DNA of 32,861 nt, from NCBI GenBank assembly GCA_016781885.1, contig JADDPM010000002.1, forward strand, positions 1-32,861. Reading direction: 5' to 3'. The notes beneath the pieces were generated by a model. It ran no database searches. It had not been told where the DNA came from and saw only the letters and a program-made list of their open reading frames with translations. This document shows positions 13,846 to 32,861 of the stretch, piece after piece. Position numbers and translations under genes: made by a program. Each line of letters opens with the position of its first letter. Position 1 is the stretch's first letter. The DNA is from Rubrobacter sp. (GTDB lineage Bacteria; Actinomycetota; Rubrobacteria; Rubrobacterales; Rubrobacteraceae).

Positions 13846-15588
13846 TTACCGCGTAGGCCTCACCGCGAATGCGTAGGGCTCCATATCACTGATCGGAACT
13901 TCGATAACCTTCATATGATAATTGGAGGCGTGAATCATTGTGTCGGGACCCGTGGCCATAGCGATGTGATAGCCAGGCCAGACGAGGATGTCGCCAGCTT
14001 GGGGCGGACCCGAAACCACAGGTCCTGAGGCAGCCTGCCCTTCTATAGAGTCTGGCAGGGCCACGATCCCCCGGTACGCCCACATAGTGAAGCCCGTGCA
14101 GTCCATACCACTGAGGTCCTGCCCGCCTAGCACGTAGGGCACTCCCTGCGCCTTCCGCCCCTCGGCGATGACGTCCGCTCCACCGCCTCCCGAGACCGGA
14201 GGAGTTGCAGCAGGCGGGTTAGGGGTGGGCTGGGCGTTAGTGGGCGGGGTGGGCTGGGCGTTAGTGGGCGGGGTGGGCTGGGGCGGGGTGGGCTGGGCCC
14301 CTGCAGGTTGGGTCTTCTTCTGCTCTTCGGCCAAGGCTTTCTCCGCATTCTGCTTAGCCTGCTCGGCCTCTGCCGCCTTGTTCGCCTGCTCTCTGGCGGC
14401 AGCCTCGGCCTCTTGCGCCGCAGCCTGGGCCTGCTGCCGCTCCTGAGCAGTCTGAGCTGCCTCCGCCGCTTTCTTCGCATTCTCGGCCGCTATAGCCTGC
14501 TTCGCAGCGTCTTCCTTAGCCTTCTGCTCAATCTCCCTCTGCTCTGCCATGAGCGTGGCCTGCTCGTCCGCTGCCGCCCGAATCGCCTGCTTCTTGGCTT
14601 GCTCATTCGCTGCCGCCCGGCTCGCCTCCTCCTTGGCCTGCTCGGCCGCCGCTGCCCGGCTCGCCTCCTCCTGGGCCTTCTTCTCGGCCTCTTCCGCCGC
14701 AGCCTGGGCCTCTTCTGCCGCAGCCTGGGCCTCTCTCTGCTCCTGCTCAGTCTGGGCTTGCTCCAGTGCCTTCTTGGCCTCCTCTGCCGCTGCAGCCTGC
14801 TTCGCGGCGTCTTCTCTGGCCGCCTGCTCAGCCTCCATCTGCTCCGCAGCACTCTTCTCAGCAGCGAGCTTGGCCTGCTCCGCTGCGAGGTCCGGCGCCG
14901 ACTCCGTGTCGGCCGTCTGGAGTTGCGCGGCAAGCAGGCTCTGGGCCTCTTCTTCGGCGGCGGCAGTCTGACGCTCCCGCTCGGCCTCGATCTCAGCAAG
15001 GACAGCCTCATTCAGCGAGCCGAGATAAGCCTCCATCTCAGTCTCAAGAGTCCTAGCTTTCTCCCACCGTGCCTCCATCTCAGCAGCAGTCTGCTCATGG
15101 TTCTGAACCTGCTGCTGACGCCTCTCCGCCTCAGCCTCAAGCTCCTCCATAGCTGCGCGGAGTTGCGCAACCTCGTCCCGCTCTGTGATAAGGAGCCTTG
15201 CCACAAGATTCAACCGAGTAGTGAAATCGGAGGCGCTCTTCGAATCGAGCAGGATGTCCGCGAAGGCGACGTTGCCTTGCTTATATATCTCCCCCGCTTG
15301 ACTAGCGAGTTTCGCCTCAGCCTCTGCGAGACGGTTCTCAGCTGCCTCGAGATCCCGGGTCGTATTCGTTATATCGCCGTTTAGCCCCTGTAACGTGGAG
15401 GCGGCAGTGTTGTACTCCTCGGCAGCCTTTTCCTGGTCTATCCGCATCTGCGCGAGCGTTTCTTGGGCCTCTGCGACCTCGTCGGTCGTACCCGTTTCCT
15501 CTGACTGAGCCCCCGCCGTAAGGCTAAACGAAAGCACACTGACCGTGATCAGACCAAGAAGTACTGCAAGGTTGAACTTTCGAGGCAT
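13846..15588 (-). CDS. Secreted NlpC/P60 peptidoglycan endopeptidase with long coiled coil
   Basis: The protein has 580 residues from the ATG at 15588 (GAGGAG upstream). The longer 609-residue ORF start gives no signal peptide at its N-terminus and is rejected. An N-terminal signal peptide (NLAVLLGLITVSVLSFSLTA, cleavage near AGAQ) is followed by a coiled coil of about 380 residues rich in Ala, Glu, Gln and Lys, with EQAKEEASRAAAA-type repeats. A Pro-Thr linker comes next, then an NlpC/P60 domain of about 110 residues. The catalytic Cys is in GMDCTGFTMWAY and the His in GYHIAMATG. The protein probably cleaves peptide stems in the wall, like RipA/PcsB-type hydrolases with inhibitory coiled coils. 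Confidence 0.92.
   Translation of the reverse strand: MPRKFNLAVLLGLITVSVLSFSLTAGAQSEETGTTDEVAEAQETLAQMRIDQEKAAEEYNTAASTLQGLNGDITNTTRDLEAAENRLAEAEAKLASQAGEIYKQGNVAFADILLDSKSASDFTTRLNLVARLLITERDEVAQLRAAMEELEAEAERRQQQVQNHEQTAAEMEARWEKARTLETEMEAYLGSLNEAVLAEIEAERERQTAAAEEEAQSLLAAQLQTADTESAPDLAAEQAKLAAEKSAAEQMEAEQAAREDAAKQAAAAEEAKKALEQAQTEQEQREAQAAAEEAQAAAEEAEKKAQEEASRAAAAEQAKEEASRAAANEQAKKQAIRAAADEQATLMAEQREIEQKAKEDAAKQAIAAENAKKAAEAAQTAQERQQAQAAAQEAEAAAREQANKAAEAEQAKQNAEKALAEEQKKTQPAGAQPTPPQPTPPTNAQPTPPTNAQPTPNPPAATPPVSGGGGADVIAEGRKAQGVPYVLGGQDLSGMDCTGFTMWAYRGIVALPDSIEGQAASGPVVSGPPQAGDILVWPGYHIAMATGPDTMIHASNYHMKVIEVPISDMEPYAFAVRPTR
14223..14290 (-). repeat. 24-base tandem repeat encoding the Pro-Thr linker
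   Basis: The unit GGGTGGGCTGGGCGTTAGTG plus four bases occurs twice exactly (14223-14246, 14247-14270), with a partial third copy. On the minus strand it encodes PTPPTNAQ repeats in the linker of the NlpC/P60 protein. It is 24 bases long, so copy-number change keeps the frame and only alters linker length. Confidence 0.85.
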
Positions 15589-15838
15589 GGCGTCCAGGCT
15601 CCTCTCTGCCGCTAGTTTTCTATTAACTTTTGGTTTTAAGGGGATTCGCTGGATCCCCCCTCCTAAGTCCGGCACTCTAGAGAATCAGAACGTGATGCGC
15701 AACGCCCTTATTGTTTCAAAATAAACCCACTATAGGCCGGATGTGGCTTAAATAACGGGAATTCCTGTTTCCCCCACGAAACCTTTTATTAATAAACTTT
15801 AATATTTGCAACGCTAGCGTAAGCTGGGTGTAGTGTTG

Positions 15839-17196: not shown

Positions 17197-17808
17197 TCAC
17201 TCCTTGGTGTTTGTAAGACGGCGGATGTGAAGGATACGTTGGGTGGTGGTCACGAGGGCGCCGACGGCGACGAGGCCGATACCGACGGCAAGGAACCCGG
17301 CGATAGAGAACAAAGAGAGAATCACGACGCGTCCCGCGCGCTCGAGGAGGCCGATCTCGCACGCTAAGCCGAGGCCCTCGGCGCGGGCGCGGGTGTAGGA
17401 GGTCATAAGCGAGAACGTCATCGCCATGCCGGCCAGGAGAGCCTCGTAAGGTTGCGAGTAAGACGCGTAGAAGAAGATCACGCCTACAAAGATCGCCGAC
17501 TCGGAGAGTCGATCCAGCGTGGAGTCCAGGAAGGCTCCAAAGGCGCTCATCCGGCCCGACTCGCGGGCGACCGCGCCGTCGAGAGCGTCGAAGAGCCCCG
17601 CGAAGAGCATCACGGCGCCCGCCGTCTTCGTATAGCCGAGCGCGAAGAGGACAGCGGCGGCCACCGCGAGAATCCACCCTGCAATAGTGAGGGAGTCCGG
17701 ACGAATCCGCATCGCCGAGAGGACGCGTGCCAGGGGCCGTATCATGCGGCGGAAGGCATCCTTATAAGAGAACGCTCGGCGCGGCTCCTCCTGGTGTGGC
17801 AGGCTCAT
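17197..17808 (-). CDS. CDP-alcohol phosphatidyltransferase (phospholipid head-group synthase)
   Basis: This 203-residue membrane enzyme transfers a phosphatidyl group from CDP-diacylglycerol to an alcohol. The complete signature D-x2-DG-x2-AR-x8-G-x3-D-x3-D is present as DALDGAVARESGRMSAFGAFL followed by DSTLD. Several membrane spans follow. ATG at 17808 has GAGGGG upstream and starts two bases after the AI-2E gene stop, so the two are coupled. The acceptor (glycerol phosphate, inositol phosphate or other) cannot be decided from sequence; in actinobacteria PgsA and phosphatidylinositol-phosphate synthase have the same signature. Confidence 0.88.
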   Translation of the reverse strand: MSLPHQEEPRRAFSYKDAFRRMIRPLARVLSAMRIRPDSLTIAGWILAVAAAVLFALGYTKTAGAVMLFAGLFDALDGAVARESGRMSAFGAFLDSTLDRLSESAIFVGVIFFYASYSQPYEALLAGMAMTFSLMTSYTRARAEGLGLACEIGLLERAGRVVILSLFSIAGFLAVGIGLVAVGALVTTTQRILHIRRLTNTKE

Positions 17809-17810
17809 GA

Positions 17811-18974
17811 CTACCCCTCACCCTTTGCAGAGCCCTGAACGATTGCTGCCTCTCCCTCCGAGGACACGACGGCCGGAGCTTCGGGGGGGGCTTGGGTAAC
17901 GAGAGACTTGCGCCAGTGTTCGAAGAGGAGCGTCTCGCGCAGGTAGCGTAGGGTGGCGGCGACGATAGCGACTATCGGCACGGCAAAGATCGCGCCGACG
18001 ACGCCATAGAGGGCGGTAGCGGCCAGAGTGGCGAAGAGCACCCAGAGAGGATGTACACCGACGGAGCCGCCCATGACCCTCGGTACCAGAACGTTCCCTT
18101 CGAGCTGCTGGGCGAGGAGGAAGAGCGCTGAGACCAGGAGGGCCTGATCCAGACCGCCCGCAAAGAGCGCTATCGCCACCGCCGGGACCGCCCCGAGGAA
18201 GGCGCCGACAACCGGGATAATCTCCATCACGCCGACCCACAGCCCGATCAGGAGCGCGTAGTCGCGGAAGGTAAAGTAGACGATGGCCCAGCCTATACTC
18301 CCCATGATCCCGCAGAGCAACAGCTGCGCCTTGAGGTACTTGACGAGCGTGTCCTCGACGACGTGGAAGAGCTCCATGGTCTGCTCCCGCACCGTCTCCG
18401 GCACCACGGAGAGCGTGGCGAGCGTGATCCTCTCCCTATCCAGCAGAAGATAGATGGAGACGATGAGCATGAGGAAGAGGTTGAGTATCGTGCCGAAGAT
18501 GCCGAATATTCCGCCTATAAAACCCAGGGCACCGTTGAGGACCTGCCCTGCTGAGGGCGCGTTGCTCCGCACGAACTCCGAGAGCACCGCCCCGTCCACG
18601 GAGGAGATCTGCTCCCCCACGTAGGGTAGCTCCCTTGCCCGCTCCACGAGACTCGCTACCCCGTGGGTCAGGACCTCCGGGTTCTGTACGAGAGCCTGCG
18701 CCTCGCTGGCGGCGGGGAGGATGAGGACCAGTAGCGCCGCAAGCACCGCCGCGACGAGCGCCAAAAATACTCCGAGAACCGCCACGATCCTGGGTACACG
18801 CCACCCTTCGAGCATTCGTACCACGGGGTTGAGCGCGTAGGCCAGGACGGCCGCCAGCAGAAACGTCAGGAGGACGCCGCCCAACTGCCGGACGAACGCG
18901 AACAATAGCAGCGCGCCCAGCACGATGAATATATACTGTAGATAGGTTGAGACGACTAGCTTCTTAGCTGACAC
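17811..18974 (-). CDS. AI-2E family transporter (YdiK/PerM-type membrane protein)
   Basis: This 387-residue polytopic protein is of the AI-2E/UPF0118 family. An N-terminal pair of spans (FIVLGALLLFAFV, LLTFLLAAVLAYALNPVV) is followed by a soluble stretch with LPYVGEQISSVDGAV. C-terminal spans include GLWVGVMEIIPVVGAFLGAV and the conserved GNVLVPRVMGGSVGVHPLWV. Members export or exchange varied small solutes, and some are Na+/H+ antiporters; the substrate is unknown here. Start is GTG at 18974 with GGAGAG just upstream. It heads the leftward group of 17811, 17197 and 16670. Confidence 0.9.
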   Translation of the reverse strand: MSAKKLVVSTYLQYIFIVLGALLLFAFVRQLGGVLLTFLLAAVLAYALNPVVRMLEGWRVPRIVAVLGVFLALVAAVLAALLVLILPAASEAQALVQNPEVLTHGVASLVERARELPYVGEQISSVDGAVLSEFVRSNAPSAGQVLNGALGFIGGIFGIFGTILNLFLMLIVSIYLLLDRERITLATLSVVPETVREQTMELFHVVEDTLVKYLKAQLLLCGIMGSIGWAIVYFTFRDYALLIGLWVGVMEIIPVVGAFLGAVPAVAIALFAGGLDQALLVSALFLLAQQLEGNVLVPRVMGGSVGVHPLWVLFATLAATALYGVVGAIFAVPIVAIVAATLRYLRETLLFEHWRKSLVTQAPPEAPAVVSSEGEAAIVQGSAKGEG

Positions 18975-19065: not shown

Positions 19066-19095
19066 TTTACACTCCGGGCATCCCTTCTGTATAAT
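19066..19095 (+). promoter_or_regulatory. Strong sigma-A-type promoter before the LytM-like gene
   Basis: TTTACA (19066-19071) and TATAAT (19090-19095) are 18 bases apart. This is close to consensus and the best housekeeping promoter in the window. The predicted start lies around 19102, so the ATG at 19107 would have almost no leader. Confidence 0.7.
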
Positions 19096-19106: not shown

Positions 19107-19958
19107 ATGCATGGGGGTAGCGCACAAAGAACCCAACATCTTGGGTCGAGGCCGGGCAGGACCGGCGCGGTGACGGGCAGACAGCGGTCCGCGCCCCGGC
19201 GCGCTGGCGACCCTGCCAGCTACGTCACCACCGTCGGGCGCCGGGAGGCACGCAAGACGAAGAAGACGAGCGTGTACCGGCGGAGGAGGATGGTCGCCGT
19301 CTTCGCGGTCGTGCTAGGCGTCGCGGCGCTCGTCCTCGCGGTGCTCGTACAGTCCTCGGAGGCAAGGGATCGGGCGCTGCCGATAGACCCGAATAATGCA
19401 GGCCCGGACGCCGTACTGGGCGAAGCCGCCGGGGTTAGCATCTCCACTCCCGTCCGGCCCGAGGACGTAACGGGGCTCGGCTACCACCCGGAGGGTGGAA
19501 GCCTCGTGGAGATCTCACCTCGTGGCAAAAGCCTCTCCGCGAACGCCGTGACGGGCCTCTTCGCGGGCGGCTCTACCCCGGAGAAGATTCAATACTACGT
19601 AATGGACTCCGCTAGTCGGCAGGGGCCGGCCACGGGCGCTCTCGACGTCGGGGCCGAGGCGGGCACCACGGTCTACGCGCCGGTGAACGGAGTGATTACC
19701 GCGATACGCCCGGACCCCGTACTGCAGAAGGACGCCAGTGTCGTGGAGATAAAGCCCGCAGACGACCCGAACGTGCGCGTCTCCGTCTCCCTGGTGCAGG
19801 GCCTGGGCGACGGTATAGGGCCGAAGTCTCCCGTAACCGCCGGGACGACGGAGCTCGGGAGCGTGGCCGACTCTGCTCAGGTACTCAAGCCCCAGCTCGC
19901 CTCCTACACCTCCGACACCGGCAATCACGTCACTGTCTCGGTATCGAGGGCCAACTGA
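19107..19958 (+). CDS. Membrane-anchored degenerate LytM/M23-domain protein
   Basis: This 283-residue protein has a basic N-terminal cytoplasmic region of about 60 residues, one membrane span (VAVFAVVLGVAALVLAVLV), and a C-terminal domain of about 180 residues. The domain end carries LDVGAEAGTTVYAPVNGVIT, which is the M23 core with the zinc-binding histidine motif replaced. The final TGNHVTVSVSR corresponds to the HLHFEV strand with one His left. The domain is therefore probably non-catalytic. A GTG at 19170 is an alternative start. The next gene encodes an M50 site-2 protease, an arrangement like SpoIVFA-SpoIVFB. Confidence 0.72.
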   Translation: MHGGSAQRTQHLGSRPGRTGAVTGRQRSAPRRAGDPASYVTTVGRREARKTKKTSVYRRRRMVAVFAVVLGVAALVLAVLVQSSEARDRALPIDPNNAGPDAVLGEAAGVSISTPVRPEDVTGLGYHPEGGSLVEISPRGKSLSANAVTGLFAGGSTPEKIQYYVMDSASRQGPATGALDVGAEAGTTVYAPVNGVITAIRPDPVLQKDASVVEIKPADDPNVRVSVSLVQGLGDGIGPKSPVTAGTTELGSVADSAQVLKPQLASYTSDTGNHVTVSVSRAN

Positions 19959-20008
19959 GCACACCTCCCATCTGCCCCGCGCCCCCGACTACGCCCCAAC
20001 TCGCGTAA

Positions 20009-20020
20009 TATAGTAAGGCG
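20009..20020 (+). promoter_or_regulatory. -10 element of a leaderless M50 protease mRNA
   Basis: TATAGT at 20009-20014 is followed by six bases and the ATG at 20021, so the message would start at the codon itself. The GAP-like AAGG in between is too close to the ATG to act as a ribosome site. Confidence 0.45.
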
Positions 20021-20662
20021 ATGTTCCTACTGCTCTTCGAACAGTCCCCGCTCGCGGCGGTGGCGCTGTTGGTCGGGGCTCTCGTCGGGATAGTGCTGCA
20101 CGAGGCGTCCCACGCCTACTCGGCCTACCTGCTGGGCGACGATACCGCTTATCGTATGGGCCGTGTAACGCTGAACCCGGCGTCGCACCTCGACCCTCTG
20201 GGCAGCTTGCTCATCGTGCTGGCCGGGTTCGGGTGGGGCAGGCCGGTACCGGTCCAACCGGCGAAGATGCGGGGAGGGGTATGGGGGCCGGTGGCCGTGG
20301 CATTCGCGGGGCCTACCGCGAACCTGGCGATAGTCGCGCTATGCGCTATCCTTATAAGGCTCGAACCTTTCCAGGGCCAGCTCGTGCTGTTCTCCATTCT
20401 GGGGGTGGCGTTCGTCAACGCGCTGCTGTTCGTCTTTAACCTGATTCCAATCCCCCCGCTCGATGGCTCGAAGGTGCTCTTCCCGTTCCTGCCACGCTCC
20501 CTGGACGGCTTCGTGAGCTTCATGAACCAGTACGGGCCCCAGATCCTGCTGGTCATCTTTCTCCTCACCTTCCTGCCAGGAGGAAGCTACGTACTAGGCT
20601 TTCTGCTCGCCCCGGTGCGACCGCTCCTTCTACTATTCGGGATTCCACCCCTGCTCGGCTAA
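20021..20662 (+). CDS. M50 family site-2 protease (zinc intramembrane metalloprotease)
   Basis: This 213-residue polytopic protein has the two zinc-ligand motifs of site-2 proteases: HEASH at residues 27-31 (HExxH) and NLIPIPPLDG around 140-149 with Asp148. LNPASHLDPLGSLLI is typical of the YwhC-like branch. Such proteases cut transmembrane segments of anti-sigma factors or other membrane proteins. It lies 62 bases after the degenerate LytM-like membrane protein on the same strand, suggesting a regulatory pairing. A convergent sensor kinase follows. Confidence 0.93.
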   Translation: MFLLLFEQSPLAAVALLVGALVGIVLHEASHAYSAYLLGDDTAYRMGRVTLNPASHLDPLGSLLIVLAGFGWGRPVPVQPAKMRGGVWGPVAVAFAGPTANLAIVALCAILIRLEPFQGQLVLFSILGVAFVNALLFVFNLIPIPPLDGSKVLFPFLPRSLDGFVSFMNQYGPQILLVIFLLTFLPGGSYVLGFLLAPVRPLLLLFGIPPLLG

Positions 20663-31049: not shown

Positions 31050-32155
31050 TGCATAACTCCCTTCGTGTTTGTGGCCCCTATCGTAATCTCCACGGTGCCG
31101 TCCGCGCGGACCGCAGCCCGCAGGCCAAGCCTCACGTAGAGTTCCCGGAACCTCCCGCCCCGGGCGGCCTCGGCGGCGAGGCGCTTGTCGGCCAGTTCCT
31201 CGTCGGTGAGGTACCTTATTCTATCGGGTGAGCATATAGATGCCGAACGGGTTGTCGGGCGTCCGCTCGTCGGGTACGGTCTCGTACTCGCGTACCCGGA
31301 CCTCCGGCCCCACGAACTACGGCAGGTCGCGCAGATACTCCTCGACCAACTCCGGCAACTCCTCAAGCTCCCGGAGGCGGGCCTCCCCATCCGCGAGTAC
31401 CGCGAGCCGCGCCTCCAGGTTCTCGCGCTCCTCCGCCAGCGCGTCGAGCTTCTCGCGGAGCTTAGTCATTGAGATCAAGCCCTCCGCCTGATGGTCGCGG
31501 AAGTTGTCCGCAACGAGCTCAAGTTTTGCGAGGCGCTCGCGTGCGCTCGTCCTCTCCCTCGCGTTGCGGAGCCAGGGTTTAGACTCCCGCTCAGCCCTCA
31601 CCTGCTGCTCCACCTGCTCCCGGAGGACGTTGGGGTCCTTAATGAGGCGCACGGCGAACTCACGCCCGCGCTCCTCCAAGGGCTCGGCGCGGTGGTTGCG
31701 GTTCGGGCAGCCCGACCTCCCCTTCTCCTCGACCTTCATCATACAGAGGTAGTAGTGGTACGGCCCTCGCTTGCGCCCCTTCGGCGCCACCGTGTGCCCG
31801 GAGAGGCCGCGACCGCACTCGGCACACGCCGCGAACCCCCCGAAAGCTCTCAGACGCGCCGCCCCGCCTTCGGTGCGAGGAGCCTGAGCCCAACGTTGCG
31901 CCTAGCCCTCTCCGCCACCTCCCTCAGGACGCCCGAGTCGGGGACGGGGAGGGCTATCCACTCCTCGCGGGGTTTCTCGGTGTGCTCGCGGACGTCGCGG
32001 TAGGTACCGTCAGGCCGCCTCTTGCGCCCGAGGACCTTCCAGTCGTGCCTCCCCGACCACGTGATGCCGTAGCTCGCGTCCTTGTCCAGCCGAGCGCCCT
32101 TGCGCGTGAGGGGCGAGCAGGAATACCCCGTCTTACCCCTGACGCTGCCCTCCTC
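31004..32155 (-). pseudogene. Degraded serine recombinase (large serine integrase C-terminal part)
   Basis: Only the recombinase, zinc-ribbon and coiled-coil parts remain. Pieces in order are GARLDKDASYGITWSGRHDW and REEWIALPVPDSGVLREV; a TGA after GRRV where Trp is expected; CAECGRGLSGHTVAPKGRKR after a shift in a G run; VEEKGRSGCPNRNHRAEPLE; the helical segment LREKLDALAEERENLEARLA; a TAG after LRDLP; and RIRYLTDEELADKRLAAEAA after another shift. The catalytic resolvase domain is missing at the right-hand end. It lies between gatD and a truncated + strand regulator. Confidence 0.78.
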
Positions 32156-32861
32156 AACCCAGAATCCAACAGAGGAGGAGATCCTAACAACCCCCTCGGG
32201 GCGGCTTTTTGTGGAGCGCACCCGGGCAGCCTCTCCTTTCTTTTCGCTCACTACTGAGAACGCCTCTTCGGTGGCGGCGATCTGCTGGCGGCTAGCCGGA
32301 CTGCCCTTGGCTCTGGAGCTGGCCGCGGCGAAGGTGAGCCTCCTTGAGCCCCAAGCCCTCCTCTCCAGGCTCGACCAGGCGCTTTCTATGGCGTGGGCTC
32401 GCGACCTACCCGAGCACCAGAGGACCATGCACGTCACACTGGACTGGAGTCACGAGCTGCTCTCAGAGCCGGAGCGCAGGCTTTTCCGTTGTCTGTCAGT
32501 ATTCGCGGGAGGCTTCACGCTGGAAGCCGGCCGAGACGGTCGGGGCGAGCGAGGAGCCAGAGGATGTGCTGGGTCTATTGGGTGCCCTGGTGGAGCAGTC
32601 GCTGGTCGTAGTGCAGTCGCCTAAGGAGGGCGGCGAGGCGCGCTACGGGACGCTCGAGCCGGTCAGGCAATACGCGCTGGAAAAGCTGGAGGGAAGCGGG
32701 GAGGGCGAGCGGGTCGGCATGCGGCACGCCGAGTACTACCTAGCGCTCGCGGAGCAGGCGTGCGGAGCTACAGGGACCGCGCCAGGCGGAGTGGCTGGAC
32801 GATCTCGCCCGCGAGCACGACAACGTGAGGGCGGCGATGGCGTGGCTGCTCGAGCGAGACA
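32155..32861 (+). pseudogene. Truncated and frameshifted LuxR/ATPase-type regulator fragment
   Basis: From about 32155 the + strand reads TPSGRLFVERTRAASPF, ICWRLAGLPLALELAAAKVS, LLSRLDQALSMAWARDLPEH, LDWSHELLSEPERRLFRCLS and VFAGGFTLEA. This is the middle of NB-ARC/AfsR-like ATPase regulators, which also have a LuxR-type HTH or TPR part. A shift follows to LLGALVEQSLVVVQSP and YGTLEPVRQYALEKLEGSG, and a second near QA gives QAEWLDDLAREHDNVRAAMA. The N-terminus is missing where recombinase homology begins, and the C-terminus runs off the window. Confidence 0.75.

Follow-up and report, generated by a model that had tools for sequence, protein, structure and literature searches.

LytM-like protein beside an M50 site-2 protease in Rubrobacteraceae: a candidate cell-envelope factor, less likely a counterpart of the protease switch of Bacillus sporulation

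Organization of the locus

The window, by which we mean the whole 32,861-nucleotide stretch analysed here (Rubrobacter sp., contig JADDPM010000002.1), encodes a degenerate LytM membrane protein and an M50 site-2 protease, both transcribed rightwards and separated by 62 bases, with a permease gene diverging to their left. The DNA comes from a soil bacterium, and the metagenome-assembled genome that contains it is a Rubrobacteraceae genome most similar to those of the uncultured AVDCRST_MAG37 and MAG14. The features are as follows.

17197..17808, minus strand: CDP-alcohol phosphatidyltransferase gene adjoining the permease gene (PF01066; also present in L144 and L145)
17811..18974, minus strand: AI-2E family permease gene, divergent from the LytM-like gene (PF01594)
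19066..19095, plus strand: putative sigma-70-type promoter of the LytM-like gene, TTTACA-N18-TATAAT, ending 11 bases before the ATG (scan)
19107..19958, plus strand: coding sequence of the degenerate LytM membrane protein, 283 residues (open reading frame, orthologues, model)
19290..19358, plus strand: single transmembrane segment, approximately residues 62-84, preceded by RRRR (sequence and model helix 45-87)
19473..19493, plus strand: family motif GLGYHPE around H127, conserved across the wider LytM family
19599..19949, plus strand: LytM/M23-fold domain, with His replaced by T176, D180 and H274 kept, and His replaced by T276 (model, alignment)
20006..20014, plus strand: TAATATAGT, a putative -10-like element just before the M50 start (intergenic comparison)
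20021..20662, plus strand: coding sequence of the M50 site-2 protease, 213 residues, without a CBS or PDZ domain (open reading frame, Pfam, alignment)
20099..20113, plus strand: HEASH metal-binding motif of the M50 protease (H27, E28 and H31 invariant)

Elsewhere in the window, 13846-15675 encodes an NlpC/P60-like secreted protein that has a proline-rich linker and whose long middle part is repetitive and rich in Ala, Gln and Glu, and overlapping recombinase-like and regulator-like frames at 31317-32624, near the contig end, are possibly a broken mobile element.

The LytM-like protein and the M50 protease

The AlphaFold2 model of the 283-residue protein has a long N-terminal helix (residues 45-87) and a LytM region that is mostly at pLDDT 88-98. 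Its top PDB matches in Foldseek are M23/LytM-type structures only, at probability 1.00 (Csd3, 5e-5; SpoIIQ, 7e-4; also LytM and EnvC), and DipM is among its Foldseek matches as well. A Pfam scan of the protein returned no M23 assignment and an NCBIfam scan no family above cut-off. The single-span protein with an M23/LytM domain described in the sequence-only reading is thus recovered in the model as one long helix and a LytM fold, and the RRRR preceding the span predicts a topology that is likely N-in/C-out.

Threonine takes the place of the zinc-binding histidine of HxxxD (T176) and of the second histidine of HxH (T276), while D180 and H274, the first HxH histidine, are retained, a pattern that is invariant or nearly so among 33 aligned Rubrobacteraceae orthologues. 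The earlier statement that the domain has lost its zinc ligands therefore holds for two of the three, each a His replaced by Thr, and fails for the third, D180, which is kept.

The downstream protein was correctly recognized as a site-2 protease: PF02163 is above cut-off and is the sole such Pfam family in its 213 residues, and both open reading frames and the gap between them are as described. The HEAxH residues (H27, E28, H31) and D148 are invariant in 33 orthologues, and the active site is intact. By sequence profile the closest solved relatives are the archaeal M50 protease MJ0392 and SpoIVFB, and the gene belongs to the short COG1994-type M50 proteases.

Gene order within Rubrobacteraceae

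Of 40 genomes of the class Rubrobacteria that were compared, 37 have the LytM-like gene and 38 have M50, with full-length orthologues of both proteins at 43-88% identity across the class, such that chance is ruled out. The LytM-like gene lies directly upstream of M50 on the same strand in 35 of the 35 Rubrobacteraceae genomes that could be evaluated, with both genes on one contig (34 complete cases plus G035, where there is a fragment at a contig edge); adjacency was not evaluable in G018 and G034, and G004 has neither gene. The gap between them is 7-80 bases in most genomes and longer in G002 and G003, that of G002 containing a small inserted open reading frame. The sequence-only reading had interpreted the two genes as a regulatory pair of the SpoIVFA-SpoIVFB type, and in the relatives they are indeed not rarely adjacent, nor is an intact zinc site conserved in the LytM protein.

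The same genomes, in essence, also conserve the larger block UvrC-RR-HK-M50-LytM-(AI-2E)-PgsA-UDG, and the neighbour pairs HK-M50, RR-HK, UvrC-RR and PgsA-UDG are about as well conserved as LytM-M50. Because the whole block is syntenic in the class, the class-wide adjacency test has no discriminating power, and adjacency as proof of a shared function of LytM and M50 was rejected. The two genes also part company: in genus g8 M50 is kept in place and the LytM-like gene is lost, being missing between the AI-2E and M50 genes in G012, with no LytM match in G013. G026 carries a second copy of M50 close to an integrase-like gene (L074, G026:C1:3772000-3789000), and this copy is without a LytM neighbour. 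LytM and M50 do stay together at loci where no AI-2E gene was found alongside (L067, L068, L072, L107).

The hexamers ahead of the LytM-like gene would constitute a near-perfect promoter, and 25 of the 32 orthologous loci have TTTACA-N16..19-TATA[AG]T upstream of this gene. Immediately ahead of the M50 start, CGTGTATCAT or a variant of it occurs in most orthologues with a long enough gap, and it is sometimes palindromic (GGGCGTGTATCATACGCCC). The partly palindromic CGTGTATCATACG is conserved at this position (20006-20014 in the window, and in the intergenic regions of L020, L029 and L036) and is possibly a promoter with an overlapping operator. Three genomes with gaps of 7-15 bases lack the -10-like element, and their LytM-M50 genes may form simple operons. 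The shared direction and short gaps in most of the class allow co-transcription.

In Bacillus subtilis, SpoIVFB is inhibited only when BofA and SpoIVFA act together, and it is BofA that fills the active-site cleft (PMC9042235, PMC12632252). BofA-like genes were recovered in six of the 40 genomes by Pfam and in seven by a Rubrobacter BofA-like query, both with poor control sensitivity. None was found in the genome of the window or beside the LytM-M50 locus; this absence is weak, since searching with Pfam also failed to recover the B. subtilis control. We note that BofA-like small membrane proteins do occur in some Rubrobacter (L283 1483-1725, L284 1498-1698), outside the known endospore formers, and that one of these two loci is near nadD- and rsfS-like genes and the other near a sortase-like gene.

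The LytM family and the M50 protease across the phylum

Of 199 genomes from the phylum, 75 match a profile of the LytM family, and 17 of those 75 are Rubrobacteraceae. The window protein belongs to this actinobacterial family by profile match, loss of the first zinc His, the G[YF]H motif and its placement in the tree. The first zinc His is absent from all 75 members of the family alignment (33 Rubrobacteraceae rows and 42 others), and yet H127 of the G[YF]H motif (33 of 33 Rubrobacteraceae rows, 37 of the 42 others), D180 and H274 are nearly invariant, which argues for strong constraint without the classical site. Position 276, the last zinc ligand, is His in the branch linked to recN-steA-steB and is lost in the Rubrobacteraceae and ymdB branches; it is conceivable that members of the former have rebuilt a metal site using H127. 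Scans of Pfam and NCBIfam gave no model of the family's own, and literature searches on LytM with recN/SteA or with YmdB returned nothing relevant and no description of the family. Proteins of ~580-740 residues carrying the family domain at the C-terminus (L151, L154, L166, L172, L175, L178) keep the HxH pair and are without the first zinc His; that of L151 also matches DUF5719.

Different neighbours are seen in different branches. Among 41 LytM loci from outside Rubrobacteraceae, nine have ymdB directly downstream and two have a phosphorylase gene; the ymdB arrangement, usually opposite an AI-2E permease gene, is that of the sister branch (L111, L142, L143, L147, L148, L153, L157, L158, L173). 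The divergent AI-2E permease, as in the window, is present at ten loci of the AI-2E/ymdB/phosphorylase branch, and is the most widely common neighbour of the window's LytM branch (L141-L147, L157, L158, L173). At 13 of the 41 the LytM gene is between recN and steA, with steB visible in twelve, and in one more it follows recN. These recN-LytM-steA(-steB) cell-division clusters are in other actinobacterial lineages (L149, L150, L152, L155, L159, L162, L164, L165, L167-L170, L177). In one representative, L164, a match to NF040608 confirms SteA and one to PF11382 confirms SteB. Rubrobacteraceae that have recN-steA-steB carry no LytM gene at that cluster.

In the tree the LytM proteins of Rubrobacteraceae have the ymdB-linked clade as their sister group (94/87), within the branch associated with AI-2E. 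The recN-steA-steB-linked members make up a branch of their own. M50 is downstream of an AI-2E-branch LytM gene only in Rubrobacteraceae, the other members having ymdB or phosphorylase there. Given this tree and these neighbours, the link to M50 most simply arose once.

Beyond Rubrobacteria, the adjacency was not recovered from either side: none of the 41 LytM loci has this type of M50 gene within ~6 kb, and none of 60 M50 loci outside the class has a LytM gene within ~3.5 kb. The M50 relatives at these 60 loci often adjoin trpS-, scpA- or xerD-like genes, as read by eye from the sequence. In several genomes with the recN-steA-steB arrangement, about 13-29 kb of the contig lie between it and M50, so that a loose ancestral neighbourhood is possible. 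This M50 is absent from 11 of 51 non-Rubrobacteraceae genomes carrying the LytM family and is present in genomes without it; co-occurrence of the two across the phylum is not significant (Fisher p = 0.15, a weak negative). A mirror-tree comparison, of 25 loci only and with two same-genome pairs among them, is a further weak negative, with a partial rate correlation of -0.02 for LytM-M50, and so no excess; the kinase-regulator pair scores 0.29 and M50-HK 0.40.

Interpretation

The best explanation, to which we give about an even chance, is that the LytM-like protein is a non-catalytic envelope factor that became the neighbour of M50 through a single event and is functionally independent of it. 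The protein would represent, in Rubrobacteraceae, an actinobacterial family whose members cross the membrane once, N-in/C-out, and have on the outer side a LytM domain unable to bind a catalytic zinc in the normal way. Anchored in the membrane, it may bind peptidoglycan or a partner through that outer domain and, by analogy with EnvC-like and SpoIIQ-like proteins, could position or gate a cell-wall enzyme. The M50 gene would be an ordinary short SpoIVFB-type (COG1994-like) housekeeping site-2 protease gene, which presumably came to lie downstream of LytM once, at the base of Rubrobacteraceae, and stayed there with the conserved gene block. The strongest support for an envelope role is the steA-steB cluster, and it is indirect, coming from another branch of the family and not that of Rubrobacteraceae. 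In Corynebacterineae, RipA, a hydrolase, and the separation of cells are under the control of SteAB (PMC12977500, PMC6705760), and, judging from gene order, the recN-steA-steB-linked LytM protein is a possible partner of that system; the text of a recent SteAB paper has no mention of LytM or M23. Also counting against this explanation are the same-direction short gaps, which permit co-transcription with M50, and retention of the two genes where no AI-2E gene accompanies them.

An alternative that we regard as doubtful is that Rubrobacteraceae independently assembled a pair like SpoIVFA-SpoIVFB, in which the LytM protein binds M50 in the membrane and either holds it inactive or feeds it substrate until a signal from outside removes LytM. 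The LytM protein shares the architecture of SpoIVFA, and in clostridia, too, genes for inactive LytM proteins that are not orthologues are found at the positions of spoIIQ and spoIVFA (PMC3533761). The invariable co-directional adjacency, the gaps of merely 7-15 bases in some genomes and the persistence of LytM-M50 without AI-2E are all in its favour. Against it, the background synteny is equally complete, the adjacency has a single origin and is absent elsewhere in the phylum where examined, and M50 persists without LytM in genus g8 and in the second copy of G026. In most genomes a separate -10-like element precedes M50, there is no rate covariation, and a BofA-like partner is mostly not found and never adjacent. 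The regulatory pair of the sequence-only reading is accordingly not supported by the comparison. The more specific proposal of an inhibitory or adaptor complex of LytM and M50 in the membrane of an actinobacterium that forms no spores, joined in some species by a BofA-like protein, is unlikely; such a complex would be a SpoIVF-type switch put together a second time from unrelated housekeeping parts.

Site-2 proteases cleave single-span membrane anchors, and the LytM protein, with one span and a long basic cytosolic tail, is encoded beside such an enzyme; it could be the substrate of M50, its outer domain being shed before M50 cuts the transmembrane segment for clearance or signal release. We consider this slightly less probable again, as M50 orthologues are found in genomes that lack the LytM family and the pair includes no site-1 protease. 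Common descent with SpoIVFA-SpoIVFB, from an ancestral module passed down to both Actinobacteria and Firmicutes, would account for the same two domain types in the same order but is highly improbable: an ancestral pair is contradicted by the nearest LytM relatives, which pair with ymdB, and by those of M50, which lie beside trpS-, scpA- or xerD-like genes; SpoIVFA is reported from Bacilli that form spores and from none of the clostridia that were examined (PMC3533761); and this M50 has no CBS domain.

A cell-envelope helper is therefore the more likely identity of the LytM-like protein, and the wider family is a more useful outcome than the pair itself, whose interest is modest. If the family interpretation is true, many Actinobacteria share a membrane LytM factor without its zinc site, a new candidate part of the regulation of wall hydrolysis, with the gene of one branch in the recN-steA-steB cluster. 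If the pair interpretation were true, LytM-controlled intramembrane proteolysis would have a second origin.

Comparison with known systems

SpoIVFA-SpoIVFB, which processes pro-sigmaK in B. subtilis, likewise has a single-span inactive-LytM protein encoded beside an M50 protease. The window protein resembles SpoIVFA in having a span followed by a LytM domain that is predicted to be outside, substituted zinc ligands and a gene directly upstream of M50, and the protease resembles SpoIVFB in its HExxH motif and membrane-embedded Asp, all four residues being invariant. In contrast, SpoIVFB has a C-terminal CBS domain where the M50 protein of the window has only PF02163, the Rubrobacter host is not a known endospore former, and a BofA-like partner was recovered in few of the 40 genomes searched and never alongside. 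The adjacency here has one origin, and LytM relatives elsewhere have other partners.

The degenerate LytM factors EnvC, NlpD and DipM, together with SpoIIQ, also combine a LytM fold with an altered zinc site and face the envelope. The window protein differs from them in having a transmembrane anchor rather than a lipoprotein, periplasmic or coiled-coil form, and its family in having the conserved G[YF]H motif and no known amidase partner. The SteA-SteB/RipA pathway is related through the family members between recN and steA(-steB) at the 13 loci of other lineages, whereas Rubrobacteraceae have their LytM gene at a different locus and its product falls in a different branch. The protease of the window is a member of the short COG1994-type M50 proteases found by trpS and scpA, which are LytM-adjacent in Rubrobacteraceae only.
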